DNA of 64,000 bases, taken from Prosopocoilus inquinatus. Lineage: Eukaryota > Arthropoda > Insecta > Coleoptera > Lucanidae. Below are positions 11,055 through 55,503 of the stretch, in pieces; position 1 is the stretch's first letter; each line of letters opens with the position of its first letter. A model generated the notes under the pieces. The model did no database searches. It was not told where the DNA came from and worked only from the letters and a program-made list of their open reading frames with translations. The stretch covers positions 1,178,001-1,242,000 of the forward strand of contig CM069869.1 in the NCBI GenBank assembly GCA_036172665.1, given 5' to 3'. The position numbers and the translations under genes are program-made.

Positions 11055-11185
11055 ATCAAGCATGTTCTTTTTTATAAAATTAAAATGAAACTTTTTTTCT
11101 CTCTTGTAAACCCAATCCGGAAATAGGGTTTACAAGAGAGAAAAAAAGTTTCATTTTAATTTTATAAAAAAAGAACATGCTTGAT
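11055..11185. repeat. Near-perfect snap-back palindrome, about 59-nt arms
   Basis: The left arm (11055-11113) and right arm (11126-11185) are reverse complements except for one extra A in a run. They are separated by 12 nt (aatccggaaata). The arm matches, in single orientation, the repeat at about 11925-11990, so the palindrome is an inverted duplication of a dispersed repeat. Confidence 0.95.
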
Positions 11186-15530: not shown

Positions 15531-17004
15531 ACAGAGGATTATAAGGTAATACGACAGCGTATTCCGTACGGGCACACTTTAATGTCCGATAGGTGTTATG
15601 TCAAGCGCAAGGCATAAACACTATTCTCTCTCGCATATTGACGTTTTGCTTCCCTGCTTTCAGCTATCTCTCTCGCACATTATTCTTACGATCTCCCGCA
15701 CATACCAATGTACAGATGAATGCTCTGGCGGATCATCTATCTTACTGTTATGTACTGTGCAAGGCAGCAAGGGTTCACCCATTGTGGTCGTTAGTACACA
15801 TTAAGGAATACACTAATCAGTAAACAAATCTTCCTTTCATCCATGGAATTGTTTATTAAACCTTGAAACAAATATATTTAGATAGACAAGTCTGACAAGG
15901 TGTAAATTAATATGTAATTAAACACCGCACGAATAAGGAAATAAAAATGTGTTTACTTAATTGAGGTAGGATGTCTTGTTTGTCCCCGTATATCATCCTG
16001 TAAAAAAAAACCAGTTAGATGCGGTAAATAATCCAGCCGGATTGATTTACTTAATGCGGGTAGAAAACAAGTTTTAATTAAATTTAATGAATGCAGTCAG
16101 TCAATCGATGGCGTCGACTGCGGCCGGCGGCGGCGGCGGAGTGAAGAGCATAATGAATTAATCCGCGGTGAAAAAAACACACGGATATCACTTCGCACAA
16201 GAAGAATACCATACAGAAAACTGTAACGAATAGGCGTCGTTTGTCGAGGGGGGCAGCAGCATTACGTGGGTTTCCGCAGTATTGAGCGGTCGACGATGCG
16301 AGTCCCCTTCGTACTCTCGTGTTTACATAACATGACGCTGAATAGCCTCTTCGTCTGGATCCTATCGTAAGCACCACTTTCCAATGCGGAAGGACGATAA
16401 GAAAGGTGCTCCGAAGTGAGCAAAACACACTGTGTCACGTGTTTAGCGTAGGTTTTTTTCTTTTTTCGAGAGATGATGAGACTGTAGATTATCTGTTGCG
16501 CGCAGAAAAAAGGAACGCGGTCAGATAAGCGGTTCCTCAAGCATGAAATCTTTTGAGGACCCTTTTATATATATATAGCGGGGCAAAGAAATTTTAATGT
16601 TCGTACGAAAGAAAAAAACACACACACACATAGAAAAAAGCAATTTAATTTTGCTCGGGTGTCACTCACGACGGAACATGTCACTTAGTTTTTCTATCGA
16701 TTTTATCTGGTTGAGTCGTTTATCCTTCTACACTTTCCTCTCCCTTCTTGTACGTGCACTAAAAAGTTTACTATCTTTTTCAATATTTTATACTTTATCG
16801 CGATTTATATTTTTATTTCAGAACCACAACGAAGTTCTCCGGGTTGCAACAAAATTTTTATTATGTAACATGTTTGAGGCTGTTGACGTGAAAGTTTTTG
16901 TTGATTTTACATTAAATAACCTTACATCTAATTCTTGTTAACTAAAATCTGTATAATATACAACGTGAAAAGTCTATTTTCGGTATGTCTATGCATCCTC
17001 GATA
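15531..17004. other. No gene recognised; short simple repeats
   Basis: A (CGG)n-like run lies at about 16119-16140, a TA run at 16568 and an (AC)n run at 16618-16630. Open frames on both strands between 16084 and 16941 have no recognisable domain. Confidence 0.45.
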
Positions 17005-17421
17005 TGTCTGTAAAACACGAGCGTGTTTGTTTATATTTTTGGTTTGGTACCATGATACTGAGGTGTGTTTGACCCAGGCAGGCAAAGAGAAGGAAAAGAT
17101 TACGACAGTCTGCCGAGGGTTAACGCGAAGGATAAACGTATCCATAAAGGCATTCATGAGTCGGGCCGCGAGTGTGGTGTTTAAAGGTGCAGTCGATTTG
17201 ATAAAAGCTGTCCGCGAAATATTAGCCTGGAGGAGGCAATGGTTATATGTAATGAGCGCGATGTGTTGCCGGACATGACCTAGAGAGTTACCTGCGGAAT
17301 ATGACCTTAGGTGCCATGTATGGCAGAAGTAATAAGGCGGCATCCTCATTATTGGCAATGCGGTATGAGGGTCGTACAGGGAGTTATTCTGGTAGCAGAA
17401 TATTGTCCTGGTGGCTGTGCA
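17005..17421 (+). repeat. Family G repeat, 5' part (interrupted copy)
   Basis: Matches the 5' half of the copy at 44839-45833: acgagcgtgtttgtttatat, then gattacg..cagtctg, gcgaaggataaacgta, gcgaaatattagcctggagg and a tgtcctggtggctgtg end. It stops at about 17421, and the family resumes at about 20460 in the same orientation, so the copy is split by an insertion. Confidence 0.8.
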
Positions 17422-17562
17422 CAGTGGTACAAAACGTACTTTTCCGTACTAAAAATCCATAACTTCAAAAAAAAGTACTTCATGAAATTTAAATTTGGCA
17501 CAAATGTCAAGAGGTGTACGAAAAATAGAATTAAGGAGCAAACATACTATACAGTTGATGTA

Positions 17563-18669: not shown

Positions 18670-20105
18670 ATTTAATAATAATAATAATAATAATAATAAA
18701 TTCCTTTATTGTACACAGGCCATTTACAAAAATGGATGTACACGTCAAAAAATTGTATAAAACATAAAACATTAAAGGACGAATACACAAGAATGCAGTC
18801 ACTAACAGTGTTGCGTTAGAATACTTTGTCCGCTAAAAATTCGGCAACAGAGTAGTATGCTTTTTCTGAGAGCATTTTCTTAACTGTTCGTTTAAAAGTT
18901 GAGGAATCAGCAGTTCGCAACGAATCGGGCAATTTATTAAAAAACTTCCTGCCCATAAAACTTGGAGAATTTTCGAATTTGGTGGACTTGTGACCGGGGA
19001 CAGAAAATAAGTTTTTCGTCCGTGTGTTGTAATCATGAAAATGGGAATTAGTAAAAAATTGACCCCCATTGGCTTTAGCAAATTGTAAACATTTGTAAAT
19101 ATAAATTGCAGGAAACGTTAGCAAACTGTGTTTCTTGAATGTATCACGACATGATTGTCTGGGTTTCAAATTAAATATCAGGCGGATCAATCTCTTTTGG
19201 GCGATAAAAACTCTGGAGCAGTTGGTTGCATTTCCCCATAGAATTACATTGTAACTTAAATAACTGTATCCCAGAGCATAGTACATGTCGAGCAATTGAT
19301 CGTTATTGATAACAGTTTTTATATGTAGGATAGCAAAGTGGATTCTATTCAAATGCTTGCATACATTGTTAATTTGTTCTTGCCAGTTAAGCTGTTCGTC
19401 TACATAAATGCCGAGAAGTTTAGTGGAGAGTCTTGCAGCAATAGATGTGCCATTTACATTAAACTCTGTGCCGCCGGGATTCTTTCTGTTGTAGAATTGC
19501 AATACACACGTTTTACTAACATTGAGGATAAGCCTATTCTTGAAACACCAATCGCCAAATTGCGCCGAGACATTGGTAACTTTAGCTCTGAGTTCCTCAG
19601 GGGTCCGTGCAGTGACAGCCATAGACGTGTCGTCCGCAAATATAGTGATATGATCAGCATTAACATAATCAACAACGTCGTTAATGTAAAGCAGAAAGAT
19701 AAGGGGTCTCAGTACGGACCCTTGAGGAACTCCATAATCTACATCAAATTGAGACGAACAAATATTGTCAATTTTAACACAAAGTTTGCGGGCGTTAAGA
19801 TAAGACATGAACCAATTCAGAACATTACCTCTAATGCCTATATTATACAGTTTATCGCCAATGAAAGTGATGTCGAGACAATCAAAGGCACGAGTCAGAT
19901 CGAGAAAGAGACCCGCGACGAAGTGACCATCATCAACATTTTTGTATATAAATTCCAGAAAATCAGTCGCGGCTCCCTCGGTCGATCTACCCGTGCGAAA
20001 GCCGTGTTGACAGTTACAGAGTAATTTACATTTACTAATGAACGTTAGTAAACGATTATACATTACTTTCTCGAAAACTTTATTTATTAATCTGCATTCA
20101 AAAAA
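18670..20105 (-). mobile_element. 5'-truncated non-LTR retrotransposon with (TTA)n tail
   Basis: The minus-strand element consists of a reverse transcriptase open frame (20063-18816, readable upstream to about 20100), a short 3' UTR and a (TTA)n microsatellite tail at about 18672-18701. The endonuclease and the N-terminal part of reverse transcriptase are missing through 5' truncation. No clear target-site duplication was found. Confidence 0.85.
18816..20063 (-). CDS. Non-LTR retrotransposon reverse transcriptase (C-terminal 415 codons)
   Basis: RNA-directed DNA polymerase part of a LINE ORF2, uninterrupted for 415 codons to its natural stop. Motifs in order: HGFRTGRSTEG (about residue 20), motif A FLDLTRAFDCLD (53-64) with the catalytic aspartate, motif B YGVPQGSVL (110-118) and motif C FADDTSMAV (142-150). 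The thumb and C-terminal region follow, with LGIYVDEQLNW and FIAQKRLIRLIF. Motif B has GSVLRPL where most relatives have GSVLGPL, which may impair it. The N-terminal domains are absent, so the frame cannot mobilise itself. The chosen start is just the first Met; the frame stays open a further dozen codons upstream until truncation. The 228-codon frame on the opposite strand (19338-20024) is a shadow. Confidence 0.85.
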   Translation of the reverse strand: MYNRLLTFISKCKLLCNCQHGFRTGRSTEGAATDFLEFIYKNVDDGHFVAGLFLDLTRAFDCLDITFIGDKLYNIGIRGNVLNWFMSYLNARKLCVKIDNICSSQFDVDYGVPQGSVLRPLIFLLYINDVVDYVNADHITIFADDTSMAVTARTPEELRAKVTNVSAQFGDWCFKNRLILNVSKTCVLQFYNRKNPGGTEFNVNGTSIAARLSTKLLGIYVDEQLNWQEQINNVCKHLNRIHFAILHIKTVINNDQLLDMYYALGYSYLSYNVILWGNATNCSRVFIAQKRLIRLIFNLKPRQSCRDTFKKHSLLTFPAIYIYKCLQFAKANGGQFFTNSHFHDYNTRTKNLFSVPGHKSTKFENSPSFMGRKFFNKLPDSLRTADSSTFKRTVKKMLSEKAYYSVAEFLADKVF

Positions 20106-20459
20106 GAACTCTCAATGTAAAGGCTTTAAAATTAGAATGAAATAAATTTCAACTAACCATTTCTATAATCTACTATAGGTAACGTATTTTTAAAAAGAAC
20201 TATTAAATTTGTCAAAGCTATTTACACAGATGATATTTTAAAGGTAATAAAAACAGATTAAAAAGTGTCATTTAATAACCTGACATGTTACCTCTTTTTA
20301 ACGGGCTAAAAATTATAAAAAACAAATTCGTAATGGGTTAAATTATATTTTTTTTTAATAAATTGGAATATTAAGTATGCGACTATAAATGTTGTGCTAA
20401 CAAATTATACAATTGATGAAAAGTACTTTTGGCACGATTTACTTCCTAATGTCCCACTG

Positions 20460-20733
20460 TGCGGTGGTCCGATGCGTTGTCAAGAGGATGTTATCGTGCA
20501 CCCGCATACGGTATCCCGGAGCTTGTCGCGGGGACAAGCAGCACTGATGAGGAGCATAGCACCGTCAAGACAGTTAGCTATATTCTCTATTCATTATGAA
20601 TACGAATACAGTTGGTTGTATTCCTGACCAGATGGTACCATTGAGCTATCCAGAACGGCCTGATATGATCTTGTCGCCGGAGTGGCGCTTGACGCTCACG
20701 CAGTCGGCGACTCAACTGATCCTGAGAACGTAT
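20460..20733 (+). repeat. Family G repeat, middle part (interrupted copy)
   Basis: Continues family G after the first insertion: gaggatgttatcgtgcac, a gcggggacaagcagcac segment, gttggttgtattcctgacc and cctgagaacgtat, matching 45290-45550. It ends at the GTAT (20730-20733) that is repeated on the far side of the next insertion. Confidence 0.8.
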
Positions 20734-22748: not shown

Positions 22749-23085
22749 GTATGCTTGGGAGGCAACGGATGCTGATATCCACGGGGTGGGAGTATATCCA
22801 CAAGTGAATGTGAGGGTAAATGCATGCGAAGATAAGATGTCAAAGGGCGAGGATGTCGTTCAATATCATTGTGAGGGAGCTGCAGCTTCTAGAATCGCCG
22901 CGGAAGCGGGCGGGGCCGGATAAACGACTCCGGTAAGTGAAATGGATGCTCGTAAAGGATTACTTGTGATTTGCATGGCCCTTACCGAATTGAAATGCGA
23001 TGCCCGGAAGCTAAGACGTTTACCCTCAGTCCTTGTTGCGGTCAGGGAAGCGAGAAAGAAAGAATACAGAGAATGAGAGGTCTGA
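22749..23085 (+). repeat. Family G repeat, 3' part (interrupted copy)
   Basis: Resumes at GTATgcttggg and continues with atatccac..gtgaatgtgaggg, gcgaagataag, gggagctgcagcttctag, gggcggggccgg and the gaaagcgagaaag-type end, matching 45550-45833 and, inverted, 42786-43140. A GGGCCGG-type MITE begins at its 3' edge. Confidence 0.8.
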
Positions 23086-23213
23086 GGCTCGGTTTTTCAA
23101 TCACGGGTTAACCCTAACTATCGGTTTATTTCCATGGTAACAAGTACGAAGACAATTGTTTGTATGGCAATAAACTGAAGGTTAAAGTTAACTTGTGATT
23201 GAAAAACCGGTCC
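23086..23213. mobile_element. GGGCCGG-type MITE (copy 2)
   Basis: Begins ggctcggtttttcaatcac and ends gtgattgaaaaaccggtcc, with the same internal arms and central ccatggtaac as the copy at 21231-21360. Confidence 0.8.
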
Positions 23214-26145: not shown

Positions 26146-26273
26146 ACCCTGTTTCACCATCACAGTTTACCTTTAAGCTCCGTTTTATTCCTATAGAAAC
26201 AATTATCCTTGCAATTGTTACCATGGGAATAAAGCGAAGTTTAAAGTTAATCTTTGATGGTGAAATCGGGCCT
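26146..26273. mobile_element. GGGCCGG-type MITE (copy 3, most diverged)
   Basis: Begins cctgtttcaccatcacag and ends gatggtgaaatcgggcctt. It has the same arm-centre-arm plan, with acaattatccttgcaattgt in the middle. Ends fit the other two copies with several changes. Confidence 0.7.
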
Positions 26274-28640: not shown

Positions 28641-29409
28641 TACATGAATATTATACTATAGCGATACATTTCAAAAACTATACGAAAATTTAAGAATCAT
28701 TACACAAGAATATGTTTTGGCAATATTATCAACACCAACATTAGTTAAAAATTCATACAGAATTAAGGAAAACGTATGATGATCAATGCGCGGACGAAAA
28801 CCTTTACCTTGGGTTATCGCTCACGTAAAATATGCCATAATTCAATCTTTCAAGATCCGTAAAACAAATTACTAAAATTACAAATCATTACCCAGAGCTG
28901 TTGCAAGTACCACAACGAAGGACTGGCAGTACTCAGTACCTAGTACCCAGAAGTTTTTGTTTGAAATTCAGTACCAGTACTTGTAGGAAGTACTTAGAGT
29001 TTCAAGTATTTTACCGAAAATAGAGAAATTCCAGTACCAGCATCAAGTATCTACTCTTTACAGTACTTTATAATATTTGCACAACTTTAACGTACTTACA
29101 GTATTTTATGGTATTGAAACTAGCAGGTTTATTAATAGAATTTTGGCTAATAATGGTAGTCATAATATTCAAATCGCTGTTTGCTTGATTATTTCGTACA
29201 TTTGTGAATTGTGTTACGTAATTGGATAGAATAAGTTAAAACGATACTTGATCTTGAGCCCAAGAGACAGTAAATTGACGCAGGCCGGTAGAATTCCTAG
29301 TAAATAAATTGTTTTGCTTATTAAATCATGTTTTTAACTTTACCTGAAGATGAATAGTTAAGGTAAAAAACAGTTCAATCAGAAAAGAAGCTTTTAACGT
29401 AAATCATAA

Positions 29410-29580
29410 AAAGATATGAAACAAATAAAAACACTTTAGAAAACGAGCTACAAATGTAATTTATTAACTTACTTGACATTTCGCAAATATGATTGCGTAA
29501 ACGTCGAAAATTGCGGAAAGGTCAAATTACATTTTTAGCTCGTTTTCTAAAGTGTTTTTATTTGTTTCGTATCTTTTTGC
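29410..29580. repeat. Inverted repeat, about 55-nt arms with 60-nt spacer
   Basis: The left arm (about 29407-29463, with aaacaaataaaaacactttag) and the right arm (about 29523-29578, with ctaaagtgtttttatttgtt) are reverse complements with a few mismatches. The spacer contains facing cgcaa / ttgcg motifs. It lies inside the hAT-like element. Confidence 0.85.
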
Positions 29581-29741
29581 AATTTTTATGAGCAAGAACT
29601 ATACGAAAAGTAAATCATAAAATTAATGTATCAGACTGGATGTCTATCGTTTCATACACAACTTATTTTAAAACAATATTTCTTATTATTATGGTATAGT
29701 ACTGTCCATCAGCTTTAATTAATGTCTTTATTTATAAGTAA

Positions 29742-29848
29742 CAAGTTTTTTTAATCTCCGGACAGAAATATATTTGGAAAAACGCAACGTTTCGCTATCG
29801 ATTAATAGCTTCGTCAGGAGAGAAAAAAATAAGCTTTGTCAGGAGTGA
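29742..29848 (-). repeat. Family Y (Penelope-like) fragment, single orientation
   Basis: Shares gtttttttaatctc, ccggacagaaa, caacgtttcgctat and atagcttcgtcaggag with the fold-back copies at 38211-38387 and 49723-49890. Read on the minus strand, a ctgacga...gaaac hairpin resembles a hammerhead core but has an extra A and no matching cleavage arm. Confidence 0.65.
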
Positions 29849-31255: not shown

Positions 31256-31303
31256 TTGTTCAATCATAGGTATCAACAACAGCACAACAACAACAACAGA
31301 AAT

Positions 31304-31714
31304 ATGGAATCCGTGGAGTTGTTAAAACGTGGTTCGCTTCTTTCTTGCAAGGTAGAGCCCAATACGTCGAACTATTTTACGGTTCTAACTGTGTGCGTAA
31401 AAAACGCGTATCAGAGAAATTGGATACCCAACTGGGTGTACCGCAGGGTTCCGTATTGGGCCCTACGCTGTTTCTTATTTATGTAAATAACCTTCCAACT
31501 TATTTGAGCGGGCATTTTTCGATAATGTATGCGGACGATACCTCCGTACTTATTAATACTAAAGACAGTGATGTTGTGTTAGAAAAAACTTCAACTATGG
31601 TCTATTCAAAATAGACTCTATCTGAATGCTACTACTGAAACTAGTTATATGCGTTTTCATCAAAAAGTAAACAAAAAGGACATGAACTTAGATATCGCTA
31701 TCAATAATAATAAG
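31304..31714 (+). pseudogene. LINE reverse transcriptase palm fragment
   Basis: Reads through YGIRGVVKTW, motif B GVPQGSVLGPTLF and motif C MYADDTSVLI of a Jockey/CR1-type reverse transcriptase. A stop at about 31612 and a frame change follow. It ends at an aataataataag that is duplicated beyond the retrozyme insertion. The following fragment continues in frame from the second copy of that 12-mer, so the insertion entered an already existing LINE copy. Confidence 0.8.
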
Positions 31715-31754
31715 AAAAATTTTGTGCAAATCGCTTTTGATTGCAGTGAGAACC

Positions 31755-31819
31755 TCGAGCAGCCTCTGGACAGCTGTTTCAGCCCTGCTTGGGGCTTCTT
31801 CAGCAGAAACGTAGCTCGA
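31755..31819 (-). ncRNA. Hammerhead ribozyme (type I), retrozyme copy 1, inverted half
   Basis: On the minus strand the order is: outer stem I TCGAGC, inner stem I TCTG, core CTGAAGA, stem II AGCCC/GGGCT with a 6-nt loop, core GAAA, stem III ACA/TGT with a 2-nt loop, cleavage triplet GTC, then CAGA and GCTCGA closing stem I. All invariant core positions are present. Predicted cleavage falls between 31769 and 31768 (minus-strand direction). Confidence 0.9.
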
Positions 31820-32189
31820 CATTCCCACTGCAGACCAAAAACGACTTGCCCAATTTATTCGCAAATGCGATGTAAGAATGATGAACATATAAAATAGCGA
31901 CATCTTACTATCGCTTTTTGATCTAACATTGCAGTAGGATAGACAAATTGAAGCAGGATTTGCTCCTAATGAGTCCCCCATGCAAGGCGGCCATGCTTGC
32001 TGTCAAAGCATAATGAAAGATTTTAGAAAAATTTTGTGCAAATCGCTTTTGATTGCTTCAATTTGTCTATCCTACTGCAATGTTAGGTCAAAAAGCGATA
32101 GTAAGATGTCGCTATTTTATATGTTCATCATTCTTACATCGCATTTGCGAATAAATTGGGCAAGTCGTTTTTGGTCTGCAGTGGGAATG

Positions 32190-32254
32190 TCGAGCTACGT
32201 TTCTGCTGAAGAAGCCTCAAGCAGGGCTGAAACAGCTGTCCAGAGGCTGCTCGA
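32190..32254 (+). ncRNA. Hammerhead ribozyme (type I), retrozyme copy 1, direct half
   Basis: Outer stem I TCGAGC (32190-32195) pairs with GCTCGA (32249-32254), and inner stem I TCTG (32202-32205) pairs with CAGA (32241-32244). Core CTGAAGA lies at 32206-32212. Stem II is AGCC/GGCT (32213-32216, 32225-32228). Core GAAA is at 32229-32232. Stem III is three pairs with a GC loop. The cleavage triplet GTC ends at 32240. All core residues are canonical. The internal loop in stem I could supply the tertiary contact with loop II seen in natural hammerheads. Confidence 0.92.
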
Positions 32255-32449
32255 GGTTCTCACTGCAATCAAAAGCGATTTGCACAAAATTTTTCTAAAA
32301 TCTTTCATTATGCTTTGACAGCAAGCATGGCCGCCTTGCATGGGGGACTCATTAGGAGCAAATCCCGCTTCAATTTGTCTATCCTACTGCAATGTTAGGT
32401 CAAAAAGCGATAGTAAGATGTCGCTATTTTATATGTTAATAATAATAAG

Positions 32450-33060
32450 CTTGCCAGATTTGAAGCCGTGAAATTTTTGGGCATAGTTATTGACCAAAAC
32501 CTGTCATAGGAAGCGCATTGTAACAATCTTATATCTAAAATAAATTCCTTAATATGCCAACTAAAAATTATGAAATCAGTCTTACATATAGATGCAATCA
32601 TGCGGTTTTATTACACTCAAATCGAAAACAGGTTAGCATACGGAATTTTTTTCTGGAGTTCTTCTTCTCGATTTAAAAATGTTTTCATTGCTCAAAAAAG
32701 AGCGATTAGAGTGATAGCAGAATATCATGTAGAGTCTATTTCGAACAATACAGAATATTAACTTTGTATGTGGATTGTATGCCTTCAAACTTCTGGGGTA
32801 TATTTTTCTGAACCAAAACAAGTTTACATGCTTATAACACCAGGCATAAGGAAGACTTCAACATTACAATTCACAAATCTGCCTGTTTTAACAACAGTAT
32901 TATGGTCCAGGGTTTCAGGATATATAATTCATTACCAGAAGACATAAAAAATATTAAATCTGTAACGTTTTTTAAAAAACATGTCAAGTCAGTTTTGATT
33001 GATATGTGTCCATACAGCTTAGACGAAATTTGTTTTGTAAATATGTAAACTTATTAACTG
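32450..33060 (+). pseudogene. LINE reverse transcriptase C-terminal fragment
   Basis: Continues the LINE after the retrozyme: FEAVKFLGIVIDQNLS, then RLAYGIFFW and FIAQKRAIRVIAEY, which match the C-terminal region of the LINE at 18.8-20.1 kb. In-frame stops at about 32507 and 32761 and later frame changes make it non-functional. Confidence 0.75.
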
Positions 33061-33161
33061 TTCACTGGTACTTGAATTTTTAATATGTATCATTTTACTG
33101 TTTTGTCTATTTGTATAGTATTAAACTGACGGTATTTTTTGGTTTGCAACTAATTATTTTA

Positions 33162-33375
33162 CAGATAAAATAGCGACATCTTACTATCGCTTTTTGACCT
33201 GACATTGCAGTAGGAATCGCAATTGCGAATAAATTGGACAAGTCGTTTTTGTTTGCTGTGGAAATGTCGAGCTACGTCTCTGCTGACGAAGCCCCAAGCA
33301 GGGCTGAAACAGCTGTCCAGAGGCTGCTCGAGGTTTTCACTGCAATCAAAAACGATTTGCACAAAATTTTTCTAA
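33162..33375 (+). mobile_element. Retrozyme (family X) copy 2, 11-bp TSD
   Basis: The 214-bp insertion is flanked by a perfect 11-bp duplication TAATTATTTTA (33151-33161, 33376-33386). The first 52 nt (cagataaaatagcgacatct onward) are inverted relative to the remainder, which contains a complete hammerhead on the plus strand and ends gcacaaaatttttctaa. Both termini agree with those of copy 1. It is in the 3' region of the same LINE. Confidence 0.85.
33267..33331 (+). ncRNA. Hammerhead ribozyme (type I), retrozyme copy 2
   Basis: TCGAGC (33267-33272) pairs with GCTCGA (33326-33331), and TCTG pairs with CAGA to form inner stem I. Core CTGACGA is at 33283-33289. Stem II AGCCC/GGGCT is fully paired with a 6-nt loop. 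Core GAAA is at 33306-33309. Stem III is ACA/TGT with a GC loop. Cleavage is predicted between 33317 and 33318 (GTC|C). Relative to copy 1 the changes fall at the variable core position (A to C), in loop I and in stem II, where pairing is kept or improved. Confidence 0.93.
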
Positions 33376-33524
33376 TAATTATTTTAGTGTGTAACCTTGA
33401 CTAAATGTTATCCTTAACTGCTTTAACAATCTATATTTATCACTGCGATGACAACATGACTAGTCTTATAACTACTATGTAGATTCAAAAAGACAATAGA
33501 GTATATTATTATTATTATTATTAG

Positions 33525-38070: not shown

Positions 38071-38073
38071 AAC

Positions 38074-38128
38074 TTAAATTACACTTGTCCACAAACGTGC
38101 TTAACGTTTGTGGACAAGTGTAATTTAA
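38074..38128. repeat. Perfect snap-back palindrome, 25-nt arms
   Basis: The arm at 38074-38098 (ttaaattacacttgtccaca...) and its exact reverse complement at 38104-38128 are separated by 5 nt (gctta). The sequence is unrelated to the palindromes at 1302, 11055, 38211 and 40601. Confidence 0.95.
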
Positions 38129-38210
38129 TTTGGGATTGCTTATTAAATTCTATTTCTATTATATGTAAAATCTATTATTGAAGTTTGTTCTTGTCCGATG
38201 AAAATAGTAA

Positions 38211-38387
38211 GTAGAAAGTTTTTTTAATCTCAAACCGGACAGAAAAATGAAGGGAAACACACTCAACGTTTCGCTATAGATTTATAGCTTTGTCAGGAGA
38301 ATAAATATAAATATAAATCTATAGCGAAACGTTGAGTGTGTTTCCCTTCATTTTTCTGTCCGGTTTGAGATTAAAAAAACTTTCTAC
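38211..38387. repeat. Family Y fold-back, perfect 75-nt arms
   Basis: The arms at 38211-38285 and 38313-38387 are exact reverse complements around a 27-nt loop. The arm contains aatctcaaaccggacaga and caacgtttcgctatagattt. The left flank (38181-38215, gtttgttcttgtccgatga...) equals the reverse complement of the right flank of the fold-back at 49723-49890, so both derive from one longer element. Penelope-like elements are known for terminal repeats in inverted arrangement, which would fit. Confidence 0.95.
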
Positions 38388-38850
38388 GTAAAATCTATTG
38401 TTTTAAAGCTTTACGCCTTTCGAGATATCTGCAATGGCACTTACTACTTCTGTTAAGAGCCGTATTACAACAAAATTAAGACAAGGGAAAGGGCAATCTG
38501 ACGTTTATCTCTTAAATCTCAACCAAGCATTAACATCTCTAAGTAATCCGAGAACATAAGTTCACTAGAAGAACTATTTGCGGATGAAATTAATAATTGC
38601 TAGAGTTCAATCAAAAAATTTCAAAATGTTGGAGGACTGTAACTTACAGTTAGTAGTGGGTAGTCGGTTGTTCTTGTAAAGGATCGAATATTCAGTTCGT
38701 GGAGGTGCAGAATTTTTATTTTTATAGAAAATTAAATGTTTGTTTAAATGTTTAAATTACTCCTATACAGAGTGTTTTTTCACTGTGTGCAAATATTTAA
38801 ACTATGAATGGCAACGATTAAACTAATATGTTCTTAACGTAAAAGTAATA

Positions 38851-38894: not shown

Positions 38895-40600
38895 GTTTTC
38901 GAGAAAAATGCAGTGGCAGATTTTCACTAAACCGTTTGAGAACCGCTGGCATAGCTAAAGTTGAACGTTGGCGCCATGTTAATTACGACACGCAGCCGAA
39001 GTAGGCCAGGGTCAGAGCCTTATTGGAACTCGAAGAGGAACGACATAACTCAGCGCCGCTGCGATTAGCTAGTCCGTCAAAGCGTTTACAATTTAAATTA
39101 ACTTCACTGCAAGTAATTACAAGTTTAAGTATTAAATTAAAATCAGTGCAATTCAAGAAGCTGCGGTTCGTAATTACCGAACAAATTAAAAGCGAGGTAC
39201 AAACAAAATTGTAATTTCTCTTTCCATATTATTTTCAAAAGACTTATAAAAATTTTACATTTACTTTGTTTCCAAGGACCGTAAGTAGTAATACTTTCAT
39301 AGCTAGCACCGAGATTGCAGCAAAAGTTGATTTACGTAAAAGGGTGAAGGAAGAATATTTTTAACGCGCTTGCCTAGTTGGTGCATAAATTTTCGGATTT
39401 ATTCGTCGATAGTTGATATCGTAAAACATATTACTTCGCTGAGTGAATTAAAATTTTAAATAAAATAATTAATAAACGATATCAGTGATTGTTATTACGA
39501 AACTCTGCGTTGAACATCGAGTGCGGTATCGGTGGGCGTGTTCATGCCGAGAGGAAGGCGAAGTTGACCTTCCTATCTTTCTCGCACATTTCAACAGTTC
39601 TAAACAAGTGGCCCATCCATAATTTTTTGGCTATGATACGGTAGCCACCAAAAAATACCCGCAGAAGGTAGCATTTCGCGTCCTTATACTGAGGTCTTTT
39701 TATTTGCACGCAGTAAAAGAACACCCTGTATTATAACGTATTTAAAACACGAAAGAGAGCAGTATAAGAAACGGGCATGAATCGTGCAGCGCCGGTCACA
39801 ATTTCTTGGAACGGAGATGTGCGGATGACACGACTCCAAACGGACACAATGAGATCGAGCGTATGGAAACTGCGATATTACCCCTAATTATGCACACGAT
39901 TAAGGATTTTTATGTATAGCAAATGCAACATCTGATGTTCCCCCTCTGGATAAAAAATCAGAGAGGAGTAAAGTGCATAAATGCTTTAGCAGCGGGCGAG
40001 AAGTCGATGTTCCGAGTCCCTCGAGCAATGCCTCTTGACATATTTACGTCGTGTCTATCATTGAAGCTTTTTTTAAAATTAATTTGTTTTTTTTAAATCA
40101 GTTTCCTCAGTTTGAAATTAGTTTCACGAATGAAGTTACTACACTTGGTGTACATCTGTGTACACTTGGTACACAGGTGTTTGTTCTTCTTATAATCAAT
40201 TTAATCGTAACCGACTTTTTTTTACTTCATTAAATTAATATAAATTGTGTTTAAAGAAAGGCAGCGTTTGTGACTTCGAAGAATAACTCATTTTACGTAC
40301 AAGGAAAAGGTATTTTTTAACACGGGCTTCTTTTTTTGATTTTGTTGTGAATATTCGCCTTTTTCTTCAAACCATAATTTTTTTTCTTGTTCTATTTAAC
40401 GCCATAATTTCAGTGGTATTTATTTTTATAATCTTGAATTATTTGTAAAAATGTTAGTGAATATTTTAAAACTTAATTAAAAAGGAAATCATTTCTATTA
40501 AAATATTTTTTTTTAATGTAATTGTACTGTGAACTAAATTTCAGGTCTTGTTAATACATATACGTTTTTTATTTAATGTATTGGAGTCTGTGGCTTGTCT
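38895..40600. other. No gene recognised
   Basis: Open frames at 39023-39214 (+), 39542-39724 (-) and 40051-40233 (+) have no recognisable domain. An aacaccctgta motif at 39722 resembles the end of the MITE at 17563-17912, but no partner end was found. A direct repeat gtgtacacttggt occurs around 40141-40170. Confidence 0.45.
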
Positions 40601-40668
40601 AACAATAAATTTGGGTTTGACTCCTAACCACAATATTACGGTTAGGAGTCAAATCCAAATTTATTGTT
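40601..40668. repeat. Snap-back palindrome, 29-nt arms, one mismatch
   Basis: The arms aacaataaatttggg... (40601-40629) and its reverse complement (40640-40668) differ at one position and are separated by 10 nt. Confidence 0.95.
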
Positions 40669-40970
40669 AGTAATATACGTATTAAAAAAATTCTGAATTG
40701 TAAACTGAATTTTACGTTTTGTTTAATATTTTAAATTGTATTGCAAACTACATTCTTTTAATATATTGTTATATTTATAAAATTTGGGCATTTTTATTTG
40801 AGATAATCTTGCAAATAAATACAGAGTAGATATAGTGAGCTATTTTTTCCGGCTGCTACACTGATGAAATCGGCGGCACAAATCGATAGAAATACGCACA
40901 ACACATAGCGAAAAGGGTGGCCCAATCAGGTGTAACACCAACTTCAAAAACTGCACGTTACAATATAATA

Positions 40971-41092
40971 ATGTTCATCTAATGAAAGTTTAACTCTATT
41001 AATCCTTCAATTTGGATTGGATATCGATTAGATGTTGAAAATAACTTGAAGGACTGTTAAGAGAGTTAATTAAACTTTCATTAGAATGAATT
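40971..41092. repeat. Imperfect inverted repeat, MITE-like
   Basis: The left arm atgttcatctaatgaaagtt and following sequence is mirrored by aactttcattagaatgaa at the right, with inner aatccttcaa / ttgaaggact. Arms are about 45 nt with gaps. No target duplication seen. Confidence 0.65.
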
Positions 41093-42785: not shown

Positions 42786-43816
42786 TTCTTTCTTTCTCGC
42801 TTCCCTGACGGAAACAGGCGTTGAGGGTAAACGTCTTAGCTTCCGGGCATCGCATTCCAATTCGATAAGGACCATGCAAATTATAAGTAACCCTTTACGA
42901 GTATCTATTCAGTAAAATGGAACATTCCACTTACCGCGGCCGCTTTCCCGGCCCCACCTGCTCCAGCGGCGAATCTAGAAGCTGTAGCTCCCTCATGACG
43001 ATATTGGACACGGGGGAAGTCACCCTCGTACGTTAACTTCTTATCTTCGCATGCATTACCTCCCACATTCATCTGTGGATACAAAACCCCTCCCGATGGA
43101 TATTAGCATACCTTGCCTCCCGAGCATACGTTCTCAGGATCAGCTGATGCAACGACTGCGTGAGTGGCAAGCACCACTCCGTACCAGTCCAACAACATCA
43201 TCATGTTAGACCTTTCTGGATAGCTCAATGCCATCACCAGTCAGGAATGCAATCAACCGAATTCCCACTCACAATGAATGCAGAATACAGCTAATTGCTT
43301 TTCCGGTACCGTGCTCTTCATCGGTGCTGCTTGCACACCGCGGCAAGAGCTCCGATACCGTATGCTGGTGCACGGTAGCATTCTCCGGCCAACGCCCCGG
43401 ATCGCGTCTCGGACAATATTCTGCTACTAGAATACCTCCGCATAATTTATGACTCATGACCCTCAAACCGCATTAGCAATCGTGAGAATGTACCGCCTTA
43501 ACACTTCTGCCAGAACATACCATCTCAGGTCATATTCTGCAGATACCCTCTAGCTAATGCCTGACAACACACCGCAACCAGCACATAACACATCTCTAAT
43601 AAATCATCGCCTCCTCAAGGCTAATATTTCGTGGACAGCCTTTATCAAATATCCACTACATATTTTAACCAGCTTCGCGAGCCCCGGTTATTCCAGGTTC
43701 ACCTAATGCGCTAACCCTAGGGAGACTGTCGTAATCTCTTCCGTTTCTTTGCTGCCAATACTAAACACGCCACCATATCATATTACCAAACTAATAACGT
43801 AAACAAATATGTAATG
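42786..43816 (-). repeat. Family G repeat, near full-length, minus orientation
   Basis: Reverse complement of the 44839-45833 copy with many substitutions. Shared motifs include ctttctcgcttccctgac, ttccgggcatcgcattcc, cggcgaatctagaagctgta, acgttctcaggatcagc, gctaatatttcg and actgtcgtaatctcttccg. No open frame shows a protein motif. With the copy at 44839 it forms an inverted pair about 1 kb apart. Confidence 0.8.
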
Positions 43817-44059
43817 CTTCAGAGATATCCCGAGAATGCATAAACTTTCTTAAATTCTAAACTTCTAAAATAAATAACTACACACCCACTTGCAGGAAAT
43901 TTATCTAAAAAAAAAAACAAAATCCGCTTTATGCCGTGTAAAGTATTTCCAGTAGCAAATATGCCTTGGAGAAAATTTGAAAACCAATTTTTTAAATAAT
44001 TAAGATTATTAATTAAATAAGAACAAGCTAAATGTTTAAGGCTTTTTGCGGCAACAGAG

Positions 44060-44407: not shown

Positions 44408-44838
44408 GTGGAAATAGGCTTACGCTTACTAACTTTTTTTTTCAAAGAATTTCCAAAGTTCCTGTTTCATCGATTTACATTATTTATTATTGCTAGTCAG
44501 AACTGATTGCGGTGTAGGGTAATGTGTTTGCATTTCGCCATCCTTTTGATCTTCCGCACTGGATAGACTGAATATACCATTATACATTACCGCTGACGAA
44601 GAACACAGGCACGGGATTAATTCGTTTCATGGATGCAAATCAGTGCATAACAAACGAGATCGGTTTTGAAGTCCACAAAGCAAAACAAACAGGTCGCCCG
44701 AATGAAATGTCCAAATGAACATAGGTACATATCGAACCACGTGGTGACTTATTAAAACTGAAAAAAGTTTTTCGTCTTATGGTTGCATTGTTAAAAAATT
44801 TAGAATTTAAGAAAGTTTATACACTCTCAATATTTCTA

Positions 44839-45833
44839 TAAAGCGCGAGCATGTTTGTTTATATCATTAGTTTGGTAATATGATACGGGGGTGTGTTTGG
44901 GCCCGGGCAGGCAAAGAAACGGAAAAGATTACGGCAGTCTGTCGAGGGTTAGCGCGAAGGATAAACGTATGCGTAAAGGTATTAATGAGTCGGGCCGGAG
45001 TGTGGTTAAATCTGCAGTGAATATTTGACAAGGGCAGTCCGCGAAATATTAGCCTGGAGGAGGCGTTGGTTTATTAGAGATGTGTTATATTTATATGTTG
45101 GGGCCGCGGTGGTGTGTTGCCCGGCATGACCTAGAGAGTACCTGCGGAATAAGACCTTAAGTGGTATGTTCTTGCAGAAATGGTAGGGCAATACATCCTG
45201 TTTATTGGCAATGTGGTATGGGTCATGCAATTACGGGGACATATTCGTATCGTAGGGTATCGTCCTGGTGGCTGTGGCACAGGGAGTTAGCCAGAGGATG
45301 TTATCGTACACCAGCAAACGGTATCGTGGGACTTGTCGCAGTGACAAGGAGCACCGATGAAAAGCACGGTACCGGCAAGACAATTAACTGTATTCTGTAT
45401 TCATTGTAAATAGGAATTCAGTTGGTTGTATTCCTGACCTGGTGGCAGCACTGAGCTATCTAGTACGGTCTGGCATGACGCTTTCGTTGGAATGGTGCTT
45501 GAAACTCACGTAGTCGGTGACATCAACAGATCCTGAGAACGTATGCTCAGGGGGGTGGGTGGGTGGGTTTTATATCCGTAGGCGAATGTCAGGGGTAATG
45601 CCTGCGAAGATAAGCAGTCAACATGCAAGGATGGCGTCCAGTATCATTATGAAGGAGCCACAGCTTCTAGATTCGCCGCTGTAGTGGGCGGGGCCGGAAG
45701 AACGGCCCCGTTAAGTGAAATGTTCCATATTATTGAATAGATACTCTTAAAGGGTTTCATTTAATCTGCATTGGTCATTATCGAATTGGAACGCAATCCC
45801 CGGAAGCAGGAAAGCGAGAAAGTAAGAAATTAT
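44839..45833 (+). repeat. Family G repeat, near full-length copy
   Basis: About 1 kb, used here as the reference for the family. It runs from gcgcgagcatgtttgtttat through gcgaaggataaacgta, gtcctggtggctgtgg, gttggttgtattcctgacc, cctgagaacgtatgctc and gggcggggccgg to the gcgagaaag end. No open frame carries a recognised domain and no terminal inverted repeat was found, so the element type is unknown. Confidence 0.8.
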
Positions 45834-48009: not shown

Positions 48010-49720
48010 AACGGTGAGTCATTGTTTATTGTAACTAACTTACTGTTTTGCAATAATGTTTAAACAAACAAAAAATGCAGCCAACATTCGGCTACCTAAG
48101 TAAATCCACCGCCAATCTCTCTATAAATTAAAACATCTCGACGTACTTGCAAAATGAATAAATAATAAAATCAGAGAGTCTATAGGTGCAGTTGTTAGGG
48201 AAAGTGCATATTTAATAGACACTTTAGCAATGACATATTTTGAATGAAAATGTCATCTTTTATTAAACGAGGAATCAATCCGATTGTTACACTGAATTGA
48301 ATATTGATCGGGTGTACCGTCATTAAAATTTTAAACGATATGATCGACTTGCTTTGTTCTCCCTCGCTGAGAGTGATGGGAGAATCTGTTAATCTCCTCT
48401 GACCCCAACAATTATCAATAAGTGTGAAATGAGCCTCTGGCCTTATTGAATGTGTATGCTTTTTTCGAAATCATCTGAAAGCTAATTGAACAGTATTTTT
48501 TTTAATTGTGAAAATATTTAAGATTATTAAATAAATATCTGCATACGATGAGATTATTCGAAGTATGAAAAGGACAATATACATAAAATGGCGCGACTTA
48601 AATAGAATGTATGTAGAATAAATAATGCAGAACACGAACGAAAAACTCATCAAACAAGGCATGAAAAACTCTCATAAAACTTAACCATTCTTCTCATAAC
48701 GGCGTGCAGAGTTCCTGTTTACCACATCTGCACTTTTTATCGAGTTTGAAAACTTTTCCTTATGACATGCGTCCACTTCCGTTTTACTTTACTTCTCCTC
48801 GCCTAAACGAAAGCGGAGCCAAACAAAAGACCGGTTTTAATAAGCATTGTTAATGGCGCGGCCAAGAAACTTGTTCCGCTCGGCCTGGCACTTATTAGAC
48901 GCGCTAAAACTTGTTCCGTAACAAAGCAAGACGTCCGTCCGTCGTGAAACTAATAAAACCTCTAAAAATATTCGTACACCAGAATCGCAGAACGTAAATC
49001 CAGATGCATAGATCAACCTCACTCAAATGCTTTCCTGGCGTGTTTGTAAGACGGTCACGTGTGTTACCGAACAAGTTCCAATGGTTCTTGTTCTCTTTTA
49101 GTGGCGGATCAAAACCACGCACTTAACGTCCTTCTCTCAAGAAAATATATGATGTGTGTCATATGTATACATGGGAAAATAAATTAAAATACGCGATTAA
49201 TGGCCGATCTTTCCACTTGCTCATAAAGTTCCCAATAACGTTATTTTGCGAAGAAGTTGAATTTTATGAATGGTTGTCATGGTGATTCATCGAATTATTC
49301 GTCAAATTTATTAGGAGGTTGGAAAGATCGCGCCTAAATGAATCACTACAGCATGATTAATCGAATAAGAAAAATTTATGTTTATGTATGATAACTATAC
49401 TACGTGTTTAATTCGGAAGGAAGCTCGTGTAGAAAATAAAACCAACAAAAAAAATATTATTCATTTCATCAGAACAAGGTCTGAAGTCTAAACAATTCTC
49501 CGTAGTTTATGTAATTAGTAGAGAAGGAAATGACGCAATGCATATCGACTTTTCCACAAAGTATTAATTAATTTGACATTTGCTGCTGTGAAAATAAGTT
49601 TAGTATGTAAATGCGCAACAGTGTTATAAATTTAAATATGCGCAACTTTAATGTCCTGTGATTACAATAAAAATATTGTTTCCGTTAAGAATGATAAAAA
49701 AAAGAAAAACATGAATGGTA
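48010..49720. other. No gene recognised
   Basis: AT-rich sequence. Short open frames on the minus strand at 48471-48662, 48837-49022 and 48904-49122 have no motif. Confidence 0.45.
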
Positions 49721-49722
49721 AA

Positions 49723-49890
49723 TAGAAAGTTTTTTTAATCTCAAACCGGACAGAAAAATGAAGGGAAACACACTCAACGTTTCGCTATAGATTTATAGCT
49801 TCGTCCTGACGAAGCTATAAATCTATAGCGAAACGTTGAGTGTGTTTCCCTTCATTTTTCTGTCCGGTTTGAGATTAAAAAAACTTTCTA
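49723..49890. repeat. Family Y fold-back, perfect 83-nt arms, 2-nt spacer
   Basis: The arms at 49723-49805 and 49808-49890 are exact reverse complements separated only by ct. Sequence as in the fold-back at 38211-38387 but with a different turn-around point, here inside the ctgacga motif. The right flank (ttactattttcatcggacaa...) belongs to the same family. Confidence 0.95.
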
Positions 49891-49929
49891 CTTACTATTT
49901 TCATCGGACAAGAACAAACTTCAATGAAT

Positions 49930-51480
49930 GGTAAAGGTAGGGTAATATAATAATTTAATTAATCGATGAAACACTTGAGCTTTCTTAAAATAATATTAAA
50001 TATTTAGCGGAAAATATTTTTACTAAACCGTTCCAATCTGAGTTCATTTTAAATAATATTTTTTCTTGTGCAGAATACCGGTATCTTACATTAATATTAA
50101 CCTCTGCATGAATTATTATACATATCTTCACATCAGATGAGTGCGACGTCCCCCAAATTTCAAGCAATTTAACGACATAATGTTTGTAAACAATAAGGTC
50201 GTACACCTTTTTCAGTTCACAACAAACAAAAATGCTTTGGCTGCTGCACGTGGCAGAATGCCATCCGTTTAAGAGACAGAAATTTCTAACGAGTTCTTAA
50301 TGTGAAAGTGATGTCAGGTGTTGTTTTACGGTGGGCCAGTTTTGTTGATACGATGTTTCAGAACATCTGACACGAATTAAATTTTCAAAACTATTGCTAA
50401 TATAAATAACTCGGCGAAACCGGAGAGGAAAGTTTATTTGCGCTGAAAAACAACCGTTGATTTGTAAGCGCGCAATTTAATATTCACAATAAATTATCAT
50501 AAAATTTCTTTTAGTATTTAATTTGACTTACGTAAACGAAGGCACAGGACGAAGTCAATTTGTTTCAGAATTAAAACAAAGTTTATTTCAGTTTCCGAAA
50601 GGTACGGTGAAACTTCATAATGCAATTCTTCTGTTCTTTAATACAGGTGCACAAAAAAAATAAAGCAAATCATTTTGAAGTGTATACAATAATAATCAAT
50701 TCAATTTTAGTTTCAGCCATGCTATCGGTCATAAAAGGCATTTCTTCTTGGAAAGAGCAGTTTTTTGATAATGAACCGAAAAGTTATTATGTACTTTATG
50801 ATATAAGAATTCCAAGACTTCAACCTGTATAATATAAAAACATTTAATTTAATTTCTGTATCAAGTAGATGATTTGCTTCGACAGTCCTTTCCGAGGAAA
50901 AACGTAATATGATTTCTTATGTTTCGCGTACTTTTATAAAATCCTTATATTTCCTTTTCTGCTTAATCTGAAACGTTCTGTCGATTCAGCATCTCTAGCT
51001 CCGGTCCGGCGCAGTGCGAAGTTCAGGAAAAAAACAACGCAAAATGACATCGTCACGCCATCTAGTTTTTGAAAGCGTCTAGGGTAGAAGCTCGTCACAG
51101 GTACGCGGTGGAAGTCGAGAGATAATTCACAAAAAAACGTTAACATTTCATTAGCAGGGAGTTATTTCGCGGTCGTCAAATCGCTTCAGAAAAAACTCGC
51201 GTTTCTTTCTCGTACCGGACGAGACTGGAGACCGGACTGCGAAGTGAATATTTGTGCGTTTAAACTGTTTCGAACAGTCTTTCATTTGTTTTATATAAAA
51301 TCATTGTGCTTCCTTAATTTTGGATTACGAGGAGAACTTTCAATTCAGTTTGGTAAGCTCACATACCGCTTACAAACTAATCACTGCAATCGATAGTGTA
51401 ATCCTTATCTCTCCCCCTCTATATTTTTATTTTTTGTAGTTATGTTTCCTTGTACCTACACGCTAATTGTTGTATTATTT
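49930..51480. other. No gene recognised
   Basis: AT-rich with a GC-richer part at 50960-51250. Open frames at 49985-50206 (-), 50620-50832 (+) and 50934-51146 (-) have no motif. Confidence 0.45.
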
Positions 51481-53461: not shown

Positions 53462-54181
53462 TTAAATTATGTTGAAGAAGGTTTCAGTCCATTGAAGAAG
53501 AAATGCAGTTAAATATTTTAAGTCGTCGGCGTATAACAGATGTTCGCAATTCAAACAAGAAGATAGGTCGTTTATAAAAACCAAAAACAAAGTGGGTCCA
53601 AGATGTGAACCTGCAATTACTACTTTTTGGATTCTATTGTTGAGATAAGATCTAATCCAAGACAAAAAGAAGCCAGAAACGCCGTAATGGTATAACTTAT
53701 CGATCGGTATATTGTGATTAACTTTGTCGAAAGCTTTCGAGAAATCTGTATAAACTACGTCTAGCTGCTTACGCTTGTTAAAGGTGTCAATAACTCTACT
53801 GACAAAACATAACAAGTTAGTGGTAGTAGATCTTTTCGATACAAAACCGTGTTGATTCTGGGAAAGATAAGGATTTAAATGGTTTAGAAGCTTGGAATTA
53901 ATAAGTGATTCAAATATCTTGCCAAAGATACTTAATTTTGAGATCGGTCTGTAGTTTTTAACGGATTGTTTGTCACCAGATTTGTGAATTGAGATTATAT
54001 AAGCTAATTTCCATTGACTGGGGAAAACACTCGTAGAAAGAGATTTATTATATATCAAAGACAACAGATATGCTAAGACTTGTCTGCATTCTTTTATAAA
54101 CAAAGGACTTATTCCATCGGGGCCATATGATTTAGTAGTATCGATTTTACCAAGTAAAAACAATATTTCATCTTGAGTCAC
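53462..54181 (-). pseudogene. Jockey-like reverse transcriptase, motif B deleted
   Basis: Open frame of 239 codons. In order: YGPDGISPLFIKEC, NYRPISKLSIFGKIFE, QHGFVSKRSTTTNL, motif A DFSKAFDKVNHN and motif C LYADDLKYL. Between motifs A and C the sequence jumps from QKVVIAGS to HLGPTLFLVF, so roughly a dozen residues including the PQG of motif B are missing without loss of frame. The enzyme cannot be active. Confidence 0.9.
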
Positions 54182-54392
54182 AAGTCACATCATTTGAGAA
54201 AGCAGAAGAATTAGAAAATTTGGAATCAGGAGCTAAATTTGTACGATTTGCTTCAGAGGGCCCATAAATTGAGACAAAATATTTTCTAAAAGCTTCACAT
54301 ACGGAATACTATTGGAGGAATATATAATATGATCAAATTCATTAATTGTATAACAAGAAAAAAAACTCAAAACTTTTTTCAGATTCTTTTTC

Positions 54393-55339: not shown

Positions 55340-55495
55340 ATGATTAAATTAGCTCATATTAATATTCAGTCCCTTTTGCCTAAACTAGCTGATTTGAAAT
55401 ATTTTATATTACAAAATAACATAGATATTTTAGCGATTACAGAAACATGGCTATCGGTTAACATTCCTGATCAGACTATTCAGGTATATATTTAA
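55340..55495 (+). pseudogene. LINE ORF2 N-terminus (AP-like endonuclease, first part)
   Basis: ATG at 55340 opens MIKLAHINIQSLLPKLAD. ILAITETWL follows, which holds the catalytic glutamate of the apurinic-like endonuclease. The frame stops at 55493 where part of the domain is deleted. The protein continues from about 55486 in the next frame (see 55504-57222). Confidence 0.8.
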
Positions 55496-55503
55496 GAAGT
55501 TCT

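Follow-up and report, generated by a model that had tools for sequence, protein, structure and literature searches.

The window considered here, the whole 64,000-nucleotide stretch of Prosopocoilus inquinatus DNA that was analysed, contains three type I hammerhead ribozyme motifs, carried by two insertions (E1 and E2) that are each built as a head-to-head inverted pair of arms between target-site duplications. E1 (31715–32437, delimited by self-comparison, unit mapping and the empty site) lies within a decayed LINE reverse transcriptase open reading frame (ORF; 31300–33140, plus strand, recognised by tblastn with another LINE of the window), and E2 (33162–33375, delimited by self-comparison and unit mapping) adjoins this LINE frame just downstream. 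Several further LINE reverse transcriptase fragments are present (55471–58093, 53462–54184, 18816–20111 and 884–1354); the 120 relatives listed for the ORF at 55471 include two from the beetles Onthophagus taurus and Callosobruchus chinensis, most of the others being metagenome proteins. Other repetitive DNA comprises a satellite array at 4342–7755 (period ~145, also 287 and 429; ~24 copies) and a ~1-kb inverted repeat (42839–43864 and 44796–45807, 73% identity), to which pieces at 16987–17424, 20468–20733 and 22749–23064 are related.

One hammerhead lies in E2 (33267–33331, plus strand, predicted cut at 33317/33318), and each arm of E1 holds another, at 32190–32254 (plus strand, predicted cut at 32240/32241) and 31755–31819 (minus strand, predicted cut at 31769/31768). 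All three were recovered by motif and by structural descriptor, the E2 copy also, below the curated cut-off, by an Rfam model, and the coordinates and strands given for them in the preliminary description proved exact on re-checking. The elements follow type I order in 3/3 copies (CTGANGA ... GAA, with stems I, II and III and an NUH site), and the earlier claim of complete hammerheads likewise holds for every copy: the core is invariant, stem II has 5 bp, the cleavage site is GTC and the long stem I is in two parts. A full type I descriptor, combining the core, stem II, GAA, the A15.1-U16.1 pair, NUH and stem I, has exactly three matches in the window (these three copies); 200 dinucleotide shuffles gave three matches in total, of which none combined a stem II and a stem I of at least 5 bp. 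The loose hammerhead motif, with seven matches in the window vs 2.7 expected, is little proof on its own. At the level of sequence motifs, the three copies are confirmed as genuine hammerheads.

The E2 copy reads, in order, TCGAGC-UAC-GUCUCUG, CUGACGA, AGCCC-CAAGCA-GGGCU, GAA, ACAGCUGU, C and CAGAGGC-U-GCUCGA, an anatomy that revises the first proposal in some details. Stem I is two-part, as had been stated; its inner half is a 7-bp helix (GTCTCTG/CAGAGGC) rather than TCTG/CAGA, next to an internal loop UAC/U. This internal loop and loop 2 (CAAGCA), the putative partners of a loop 1–loop 2 tertiary contact, are both present. Stem III had been described as a 3-bp helix; it is not 3 bp in a monomer, because ACAGCUGU would leave a 2-nt loop, and is better drawn either as 2 bp with a palindromic tetraloop, AGCU, or as an 8-bp palindromic duplex between two copies. 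Differences between the copies had been assigned to the variable core position, to loops or to a stem II that stays paired: core position 7 and stem II (U-G in the 32190 copy) do differ in this manner, and a stem I change from C to T, which becomes G-U, falls outside that claim. No copy has lost an invariant core base or, with G-U counted as paired, a stem pair.

The Rfam type I model RF00163 was the top match at the E2 copy (26.7 bits, E 3.4e-5, in a 75-base stretch), in an alignment that spans the model from first through last position; the curated cut-off of this model is 34 bits, so that the hammerhead would be missed by a standard annotation run. Searched at the gathering threshold, the window yields no Rfam match, an outcome that the preliminary description had named as speaking against its reading. 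An E-value scan of the surrounding 3 kb gave a sole hammerhead match, HH9 at the minus copy (14.5 bits, E 8.4); the plant miRNA families that the same scan placed over the E1 hairpin are attributed to the long inverted repeat. An exact-pattern search with CTGANGA...GAAACAGCTGTC matched 8 viral stretches and 90 stretches of prokaryotic genomes. Rescanning these 98 with the full descriptor gave no reported hammerhead with that motif and no descriptor match with at least 12 stem pairs in all, weaker matches lying outside the reporting limit. We take them as chance matches rather than retrozyme relatives because ~67 would be expected by chance in 257 Gb (even base use). Patterns for the retrozyme ends and for the X elements described below had no match in viral contigs, and a plasmid search had none.

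Folded as a monomer, none of the three copies has the hammerhead as its minimum-energy fold: the hammerhead lies 6.0 kcal/mol higher in each, and part of the ribozyme core is hidden in the best monomer fold. For the copies at 33267 and 31755, two molecules reach their minimum energy as a double hammerhead in which stem III has 8 bp; the copy at 32190 prefers another two-molecule fold. The dimer-type stem III expected from the preliminary description thus finds support in silico in 2/3 copies, and these two-molecule folds make a dimeric hammerhead ribozyme a plausible prediction.

The hammerheads belong to a repeated unit of 312 nt (43.3% GC), numbered here from the predicted ribozyme cut site; one full unit, circularly permuted, occupies 32055–32366 on the plus strand (self-comparison, unit mapping and fold). 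The assignment to the retrozyme class is supported by this unit, the target-site duplications and a circular fold far stabler than shuffles, and by the repeat analysis, in which no LTR was seen. The circular minimum free energies of the units of the two E1 arms are -110.1 kcal/mol (plus arm; shuffle mean -76.7, z -7.5) and -109.4 kcal/mol (minus arm; z -7.0), with a z of -2.4 for the antisense strand; in the predicted circular fold, stem I is prolonged into a long rod. In the tripled unit, the longest stop-to-stop stretch is 103 codons, in one frame, or about one turn.

In E1, the minus arm (31713–32056; unit positions 25 to 368, 344 nt, 1.10 units by alignment) shares its two outermost bases with the duplication and has its outer (RNA 3') end at unit position 54–56. 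The plus arm (32055–32443; unit positions 127 to 515, 389 nt, 1.25 units by alignment), whose last 6 nt lie within the duplication, has its outer (RNA 3') end at unit position 197. The arms meet at an inner junction (unit 25/127) with an overlap of 2 nt. Flank comparison identified the duplication AATAATAATAAG on the left (31703–31714) and on the right (32438–32449). With the insert and one duplication taken out, a different LINE protein from the window can be aligned in frame across the site, whereas the alignment is broken at the site as it stands (both by tblastn); since the empty site restores the LINE frame, E1 is a single insertion. The arms are 99% complementary over 243 nt and differ at 3/312 unit positions, which suggests that E1 is probably young. 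A transcript of 31713–32443 would probably form a hairpin, its arms 243 nt long, and double-stranded RNA acting against the retrozyme might arise from it.

Complementarity of this degree is also what amplification chimeras produce, and the E1 palindrome might in principle be an assembly or library artefact, a chimeric fold-back of one strand. We consider this hardly credible: the duplications enclose the whole inverted insert, the arms have different ends as well as the few sequence differences just given, the empty site restores the LINE frame, and the same pattern recurs in E2 and in two further insertions (X2 and X3, below).

E2 is smaller, with a minus arm aligned at 33161–33215 (55 nt, unit 142–196) and a plus arm at 33216–33375 (160 nt, unit 210–370, i.e. 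ending at 58). It is flanked by the duplication TAATTATTTTA (33151–33161 on the left, 33376–33386 on the right, by flank comparison), and its two arms diverge from the unit by ~7% and ~4%; around the ribozyme, E1 and E2 differ by ~7%. In both insertions the RNA 3' ends point outward, as in head-to-head pairs, and the outer ends coincide: 54–56 and 197 in E1, 58 and 195–196 in E2, i.e. within 2–4 and 1–2 nt. The inner junctions are variable (25/127 in E1 vs 142/210 in E2). If ends were independent and spread evenly over the unit, the chance of both E2 ends matching those of E1 within 5 nt would be ~0.0025; only two retrozyme insertions can be compared, and E2 may have arisen by deletion from an E1-like element. 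The duplications are AT-rich, of 12 bp in E1 and 11 bp in E2. Flank matches of at least 11 bp arose in 2 of 30000 random window pairs, 19 of 5000 AT-rich pairs and 12 of 3000 pairs with wide flanks, and in 0.21% of pairs in a separate count that took in the satellite array; in AT-rich or wide flanks, duplications of 11–12 bp are thus not exceptionally rare as chance events.

Taking E1 and E2 together, 3/4 arms cross the ribozyme cut site and 2/4 exceed 312 nt. Such arms could not have been copied from a monomer opened at the cut site, but they could from a circle or an uncut multimer; the E1 arms of 1.10 and 1.25 units in particular point to a circular or multimeric template, and arms longer than one unit provide DNA-level evidence for it. 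Both outer-end sites are predicted to be more open than the unit as a whole (mean unpaired probability 0.34), with mean unpaired probabilities in 10-nt windows of 0.58 for the window beginning at position 50 (39th of 312 windows) and 0.75 for that beginning at position 190 (10th of 312 windows).

An origin of such templates in the locus itself is not supported. The copies had been placed in tandem RNAs; those of E1 are inverted, no head-to-tail array of the 312-nt unit was found in the window, nor were two hammerheads in head-to-tail order at a distance of one unit, and the 312-nt period is seen in the arms alone, as overlaps of 32 and 77 nt. Nor would the circular RNA of about 312 nt proposed in the preliminary description come from here: the same-strand cut sites lie 1077 nt apart, so that cutting of a read-through transcript would free a piece of 1077 nt. 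As judged from its arrangement, the locus cannot itself release 312-nt circles; it is a record of insertion from a circular or multimeric RNA, of which it is no evident source.

This inability, together with the 6 kcal/mol by which the monomer hammerhead lies above the best fold and an Rfam score under the cut-off, is what would be expected if the hammerheads were dead satellite-DNA relics with no role in mobility. We regard that reading as very unlikely, since all core bases and stem pairs have been kept despite the ~7% divergence of E1 and E2 around the ribozyme, and since the insertions carry duplications.

The window also contains hammerhead elements of a second kind, here called X, which resemble the minimal hammerheads of Penelope-like elements. 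A loose motif, CTGACGAAGC...GCGAAACGTT, occurs at 29777–29817 (minus strand) and 49806–49848 (plus strand), and self-comparison revealed a relative at 38203–38390. X1 (29735–29832, minus strand, by motif and self-comparison) is a single diverged copy. X2 (49723–49923, by self-comparison) is a head-to-head inverted pair with a short minus arm and a plus arm that bears a tail, between copies of ATGAATGGTAAA (49711–49722 and 49924–49935, by flank comparison); this duplication was detected with wide flanks, a narrower search having given 6 bp. X3 (38177–38387) is a head-to-head pair of the same element as X2, with a tailed minus arm and a short plus arm, between copies of GTAAAATCTATT (38165–38176 and 38388–38399, by flank comparison). 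Two of the three X copies are thus head-to-head pairs flanked by 12-bp duplications, and in each of them one arm ends at CTTTCTA(C) whereas the other carries a tail, extending ~33 nt further.

The plus arm of X2 contains a minimal type I hammerhead (CTGACGA, stem II GCTAT/ATAGC and GAAACGTT), the long arm of X3 has CTGACAA as its core, and the core is cut off or incomplete in the remaining two arms of X2 and X3; among the X copies, CTGANGA is kept only in the X2 plus arm and X1. The strict descriptor, which requires stem I, has no match at the X elements. With the beginning of stem II in X2 as reference, the predicted cut falls at 25 and the long arm ends at 111; the tail measures 33 nt. Seven ORFs of the window were scanned, of which five match the reverse transcriptase family (one below the cut-off) and two match nothing; no Penelope protein (reverse transcriptase with GIY-YIG) is found among these seven. 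The X elements being short pieces, the missing reverse transcriptase/GIY-YIG ORF is compatible with a parent element elsewhere.

These measurements are close to those of a Penelope-like element of Anolis (PMC11167929), in which the ORF begins at stem II, the cut lies 26 bp into it and reverse transcription starts at 111–118 bp, and whose 30–40 bp tail is the stretch between two reverse transcription starts. The available text of PMC3846280 describes rotifer Penelope elements with inverted pLTRs, mostly head-to-head, and 8–10 bp duplications. Given an anatomy like that of the Anolis element and of the rotifer pLTR forms, X2 and X3 are read as 5'-truncated Penelope-like insertions.

Another inverted insert, Y (29412–29609), is a pair that lacks a CTGANGA core and has one arm ~30 nt longer; an AT-rich duplication of 13 bp, GTAAATCATAAAA (29399–29411 and 29610–29622, by flank comparison), surrounds it. 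The tail of Y is similar to the X tail (ATTTTTATGAGCAAGAAC against ATTTTCATCGGACAAGAAC; a score as high is reached by 24 of 2000 shuffles), and the similarity of X to the whole of Y is not significant (160 of 1000 shuffles as good). Being inverted and duplication-flanked without a hammerhead core, Y indicates that this architecture is not confined to hammerhead elements. It fits the machinery proposed below for X and the retrozyme, and may perhaps represent another Penelope-like family.

Y emerged from a control set of eight palindromes that carry none of these ribozymes. With wide flanks, 7/8 match over 5–8 bp and the eighth (29408–29578, i.e. Y) over 13 bp; with narrow flanks, 8/8 match over 3–5 bp, a procedure that would also have missed X2. 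The other seven (1302–1375, 11055–11185, 23090–23209, 26152–26265, 38071–38131, 40599–40670 and 40974–41090) show 72–95% self-identity by self-comparison, with flank matches of 5–8 bp only. Y supports the reading favoured here about as much as losing the palindrome control weakens it.

The abundance of such palindromes, one of them with a long duplication, raises the possibility that E1 and E2 are fold-back DNA elements or MITEs with fixed termini that carry a ribozyme by chance, E2 being an internally deleted copy of an E1-like master. The outer ends of E1 and E2 are indeed equal up to reverse complement, and E2 looks like E1 minus its middle. The outer ends of each insertion are not mutual inverted repeats, however (unit ~56 vs 197), and the arms exceed one unit, with direct repeats of 32 and 77 nt at a period of 312 that are typical of copying round a circle or along a multimer. 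Moreover, the duplications vary in length (11, 12, 12, 12 and 13), and 7/8 of the other palindromes lack long ones. On balance, we judge a fold-back origin to be quite unlikely.

E1 and E2 resemble the metazoan non-LTR retrozymes of Cervera and de la Pena (2020; PMC7229834), as far as the available text of that paper describes them, in the type I hammerhead with a weak palindromic stem III, in a unit within 170–400 nt with GC below 50% and no LTR seen, in target duplications longer than 4 bp (plant retrozymes: 4 bp) and in a highly self-paired circular RNA, which is here predicted. They differ in arrangement: the retrozymes described there form head-to-tail tandem arrays, whereas the insertions in the window are head-to-head and inverted, with two fixed outer ends. 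According to the same text, the satellite hammerheads of newt and axolotl also have a very short stem III with a tetraloop cap (palindromic in one of two axolotl hammerhead families) and act better as dimers; they belong to vertebrate tandem repeats of ~330–353 bp, and we liken them to the present copies by description only. No report of inverted retrozyme insertions came up in searches of the open-access literature, a coverage that leaves most subscription papers outside; in the available text of PMC7761336, PMC4918200, PMC11722881 and PMC8490949, ‘inverted’ refers to exon order, MITEs, back-splicing and viroid motifs, and satellite subunits.

What moved the retrozyme can be approached through the form of its insertions. 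A LINE is one candidate: the element would be a metazoan retrozyme moved by a LINE, and the inverted form would be a product of LINE twin priming, the second target strand acting as primer at an internal site of the RNA. In twin-primed LINE-1 insertions, an inverted segment is joined to a direct segment within a target duplication, as here, and target duplications of 11–12 bp with a 5' inversion would also fit LINE products. In twin priming, however, one end should be set by the RNA 3' end and the second should vary, the second LINE-1 priming site not being fixed and only the RNA 3' end being common, unlike here, where both ends of E1 and E2 coincide within a few nucleotides. LINE fragments are common in the window, and the available text of PMC7229834 names LINEs as possible retrozyme movers. 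Further points against a LINE are that E1 and E2 lack the TTA repeat of 33505–33522, which is taken as the tail of the host LINE, and that X2 and X3, with a Penelope-type hammerhead, have the architecture of E1 and E2 too. A LINE mover is therefore unlikely.

The alternative is the machinery of a Penelope-like element. Such elements are called strong candidate movers of animal retrozymes in the available text of PMC7229834, on grounds given there and in PMC7761336: both have type I hammerheads and tandem copies, and they co-occur. In the window, a head-to-head form with one short and one long arm is found in 2/2 retrozyme insertions and 2/2 paired X insertions, and both kinds have AT-rich duplications of 11–12 bp. 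The distance from the cut to the short end is 53 nt in X and 54–58 nt in the retrozyme, and in each case this end falls at the only TTTCTA of the element; the motif is so placed in 22 of 5000 shuffles, a count that is suggestive only, since TTTCTA was picked after looking. Beyond this motif, the similarity of the retrozyme to X is not significant (404 of 1000 and 129 of 300 shuffles as good). The small sample, two paired insertions of either element, and the lack of a Penelope-like protein among the seven ORFs scanned also weigh against the link.

The wider features also agree. As described in the available text of PMC3846280 and PMC11167929, Penelope-like elements have head-to-head arms with an extra tail on one of them, AT-rich targets with a short duplication, and a hammerhead at a fixed distance before the start of reverse transcription. 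The retrozyme differs from them in the apparent lack of a protein gene, in a hammerhead that is canonical instead of minimal, and in a ‘tail’ of ~140 nt, as against 30–40. With the exception of tail length, the insertion signature of the retrozyme is that of the Penelope-like elements of the window, and the mirror-image form of both suggests copying by a Penelope-like enzyme. We consider it probable that E1 and E2 derive from a non-autonomous metazoan retrozyme, with a unit of 312 nt, inserted by Penelope-like machinery that primes on both target strands.

In the cycle that we propose, a tandem source locus elsewhere would be transcribed, and type I hammerheads, most active when paired via their palindromic stem III (ACAGCUGU), would cut the RNA into 312-nt units that are then closed to circles. 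A circle, or an uncut multimer, would serve as template for the protein of a Penelope-like element. This enzyme would cut both strands of an AT-rich target 11–12 bp apart, and each cut strand would prime reverse transcription on the retrozyme RNA, one at UUUCUA, 54–58 nt after the ribozyme cut, and the other at position 195–197. The two cDNAs would grow toward each other, each making more than one full turn of the template in the case of E1, and the joining of their ends would leave a head-to-head inverted insert between target duplications. The Anolis protein does cut and extend both target strands at AT-rich sites (PMC11167929); in the same study, in vitro insertion did not require ribozyme cleavage, and the substrate was mostly uncut RNA, observations that count against this cycle as proposed.

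More broadly, animal retrozymes may be parasites of Penelope-like elements, mimicking a module made up of a hammerhead, a spacer of ~53–58 nt and a start of reverse transcription at UUUCUA, with one circle primed at two fixed sites by both cut target strands and copied for more than one round, which would leave head-to-head ‘double-primed’ insertions; the evidence for and against this wider view seems to us evenly balanced. Retrozymes encode no enzyme. The occurrence in a single window of both kinds of insertion, alike in form, makes the guess of a Penelope-like mover testable by counting footprints in any genome, and if it is true, the enzyme that moves animal retrozymes would be identifiable from the footprints of their insertions.
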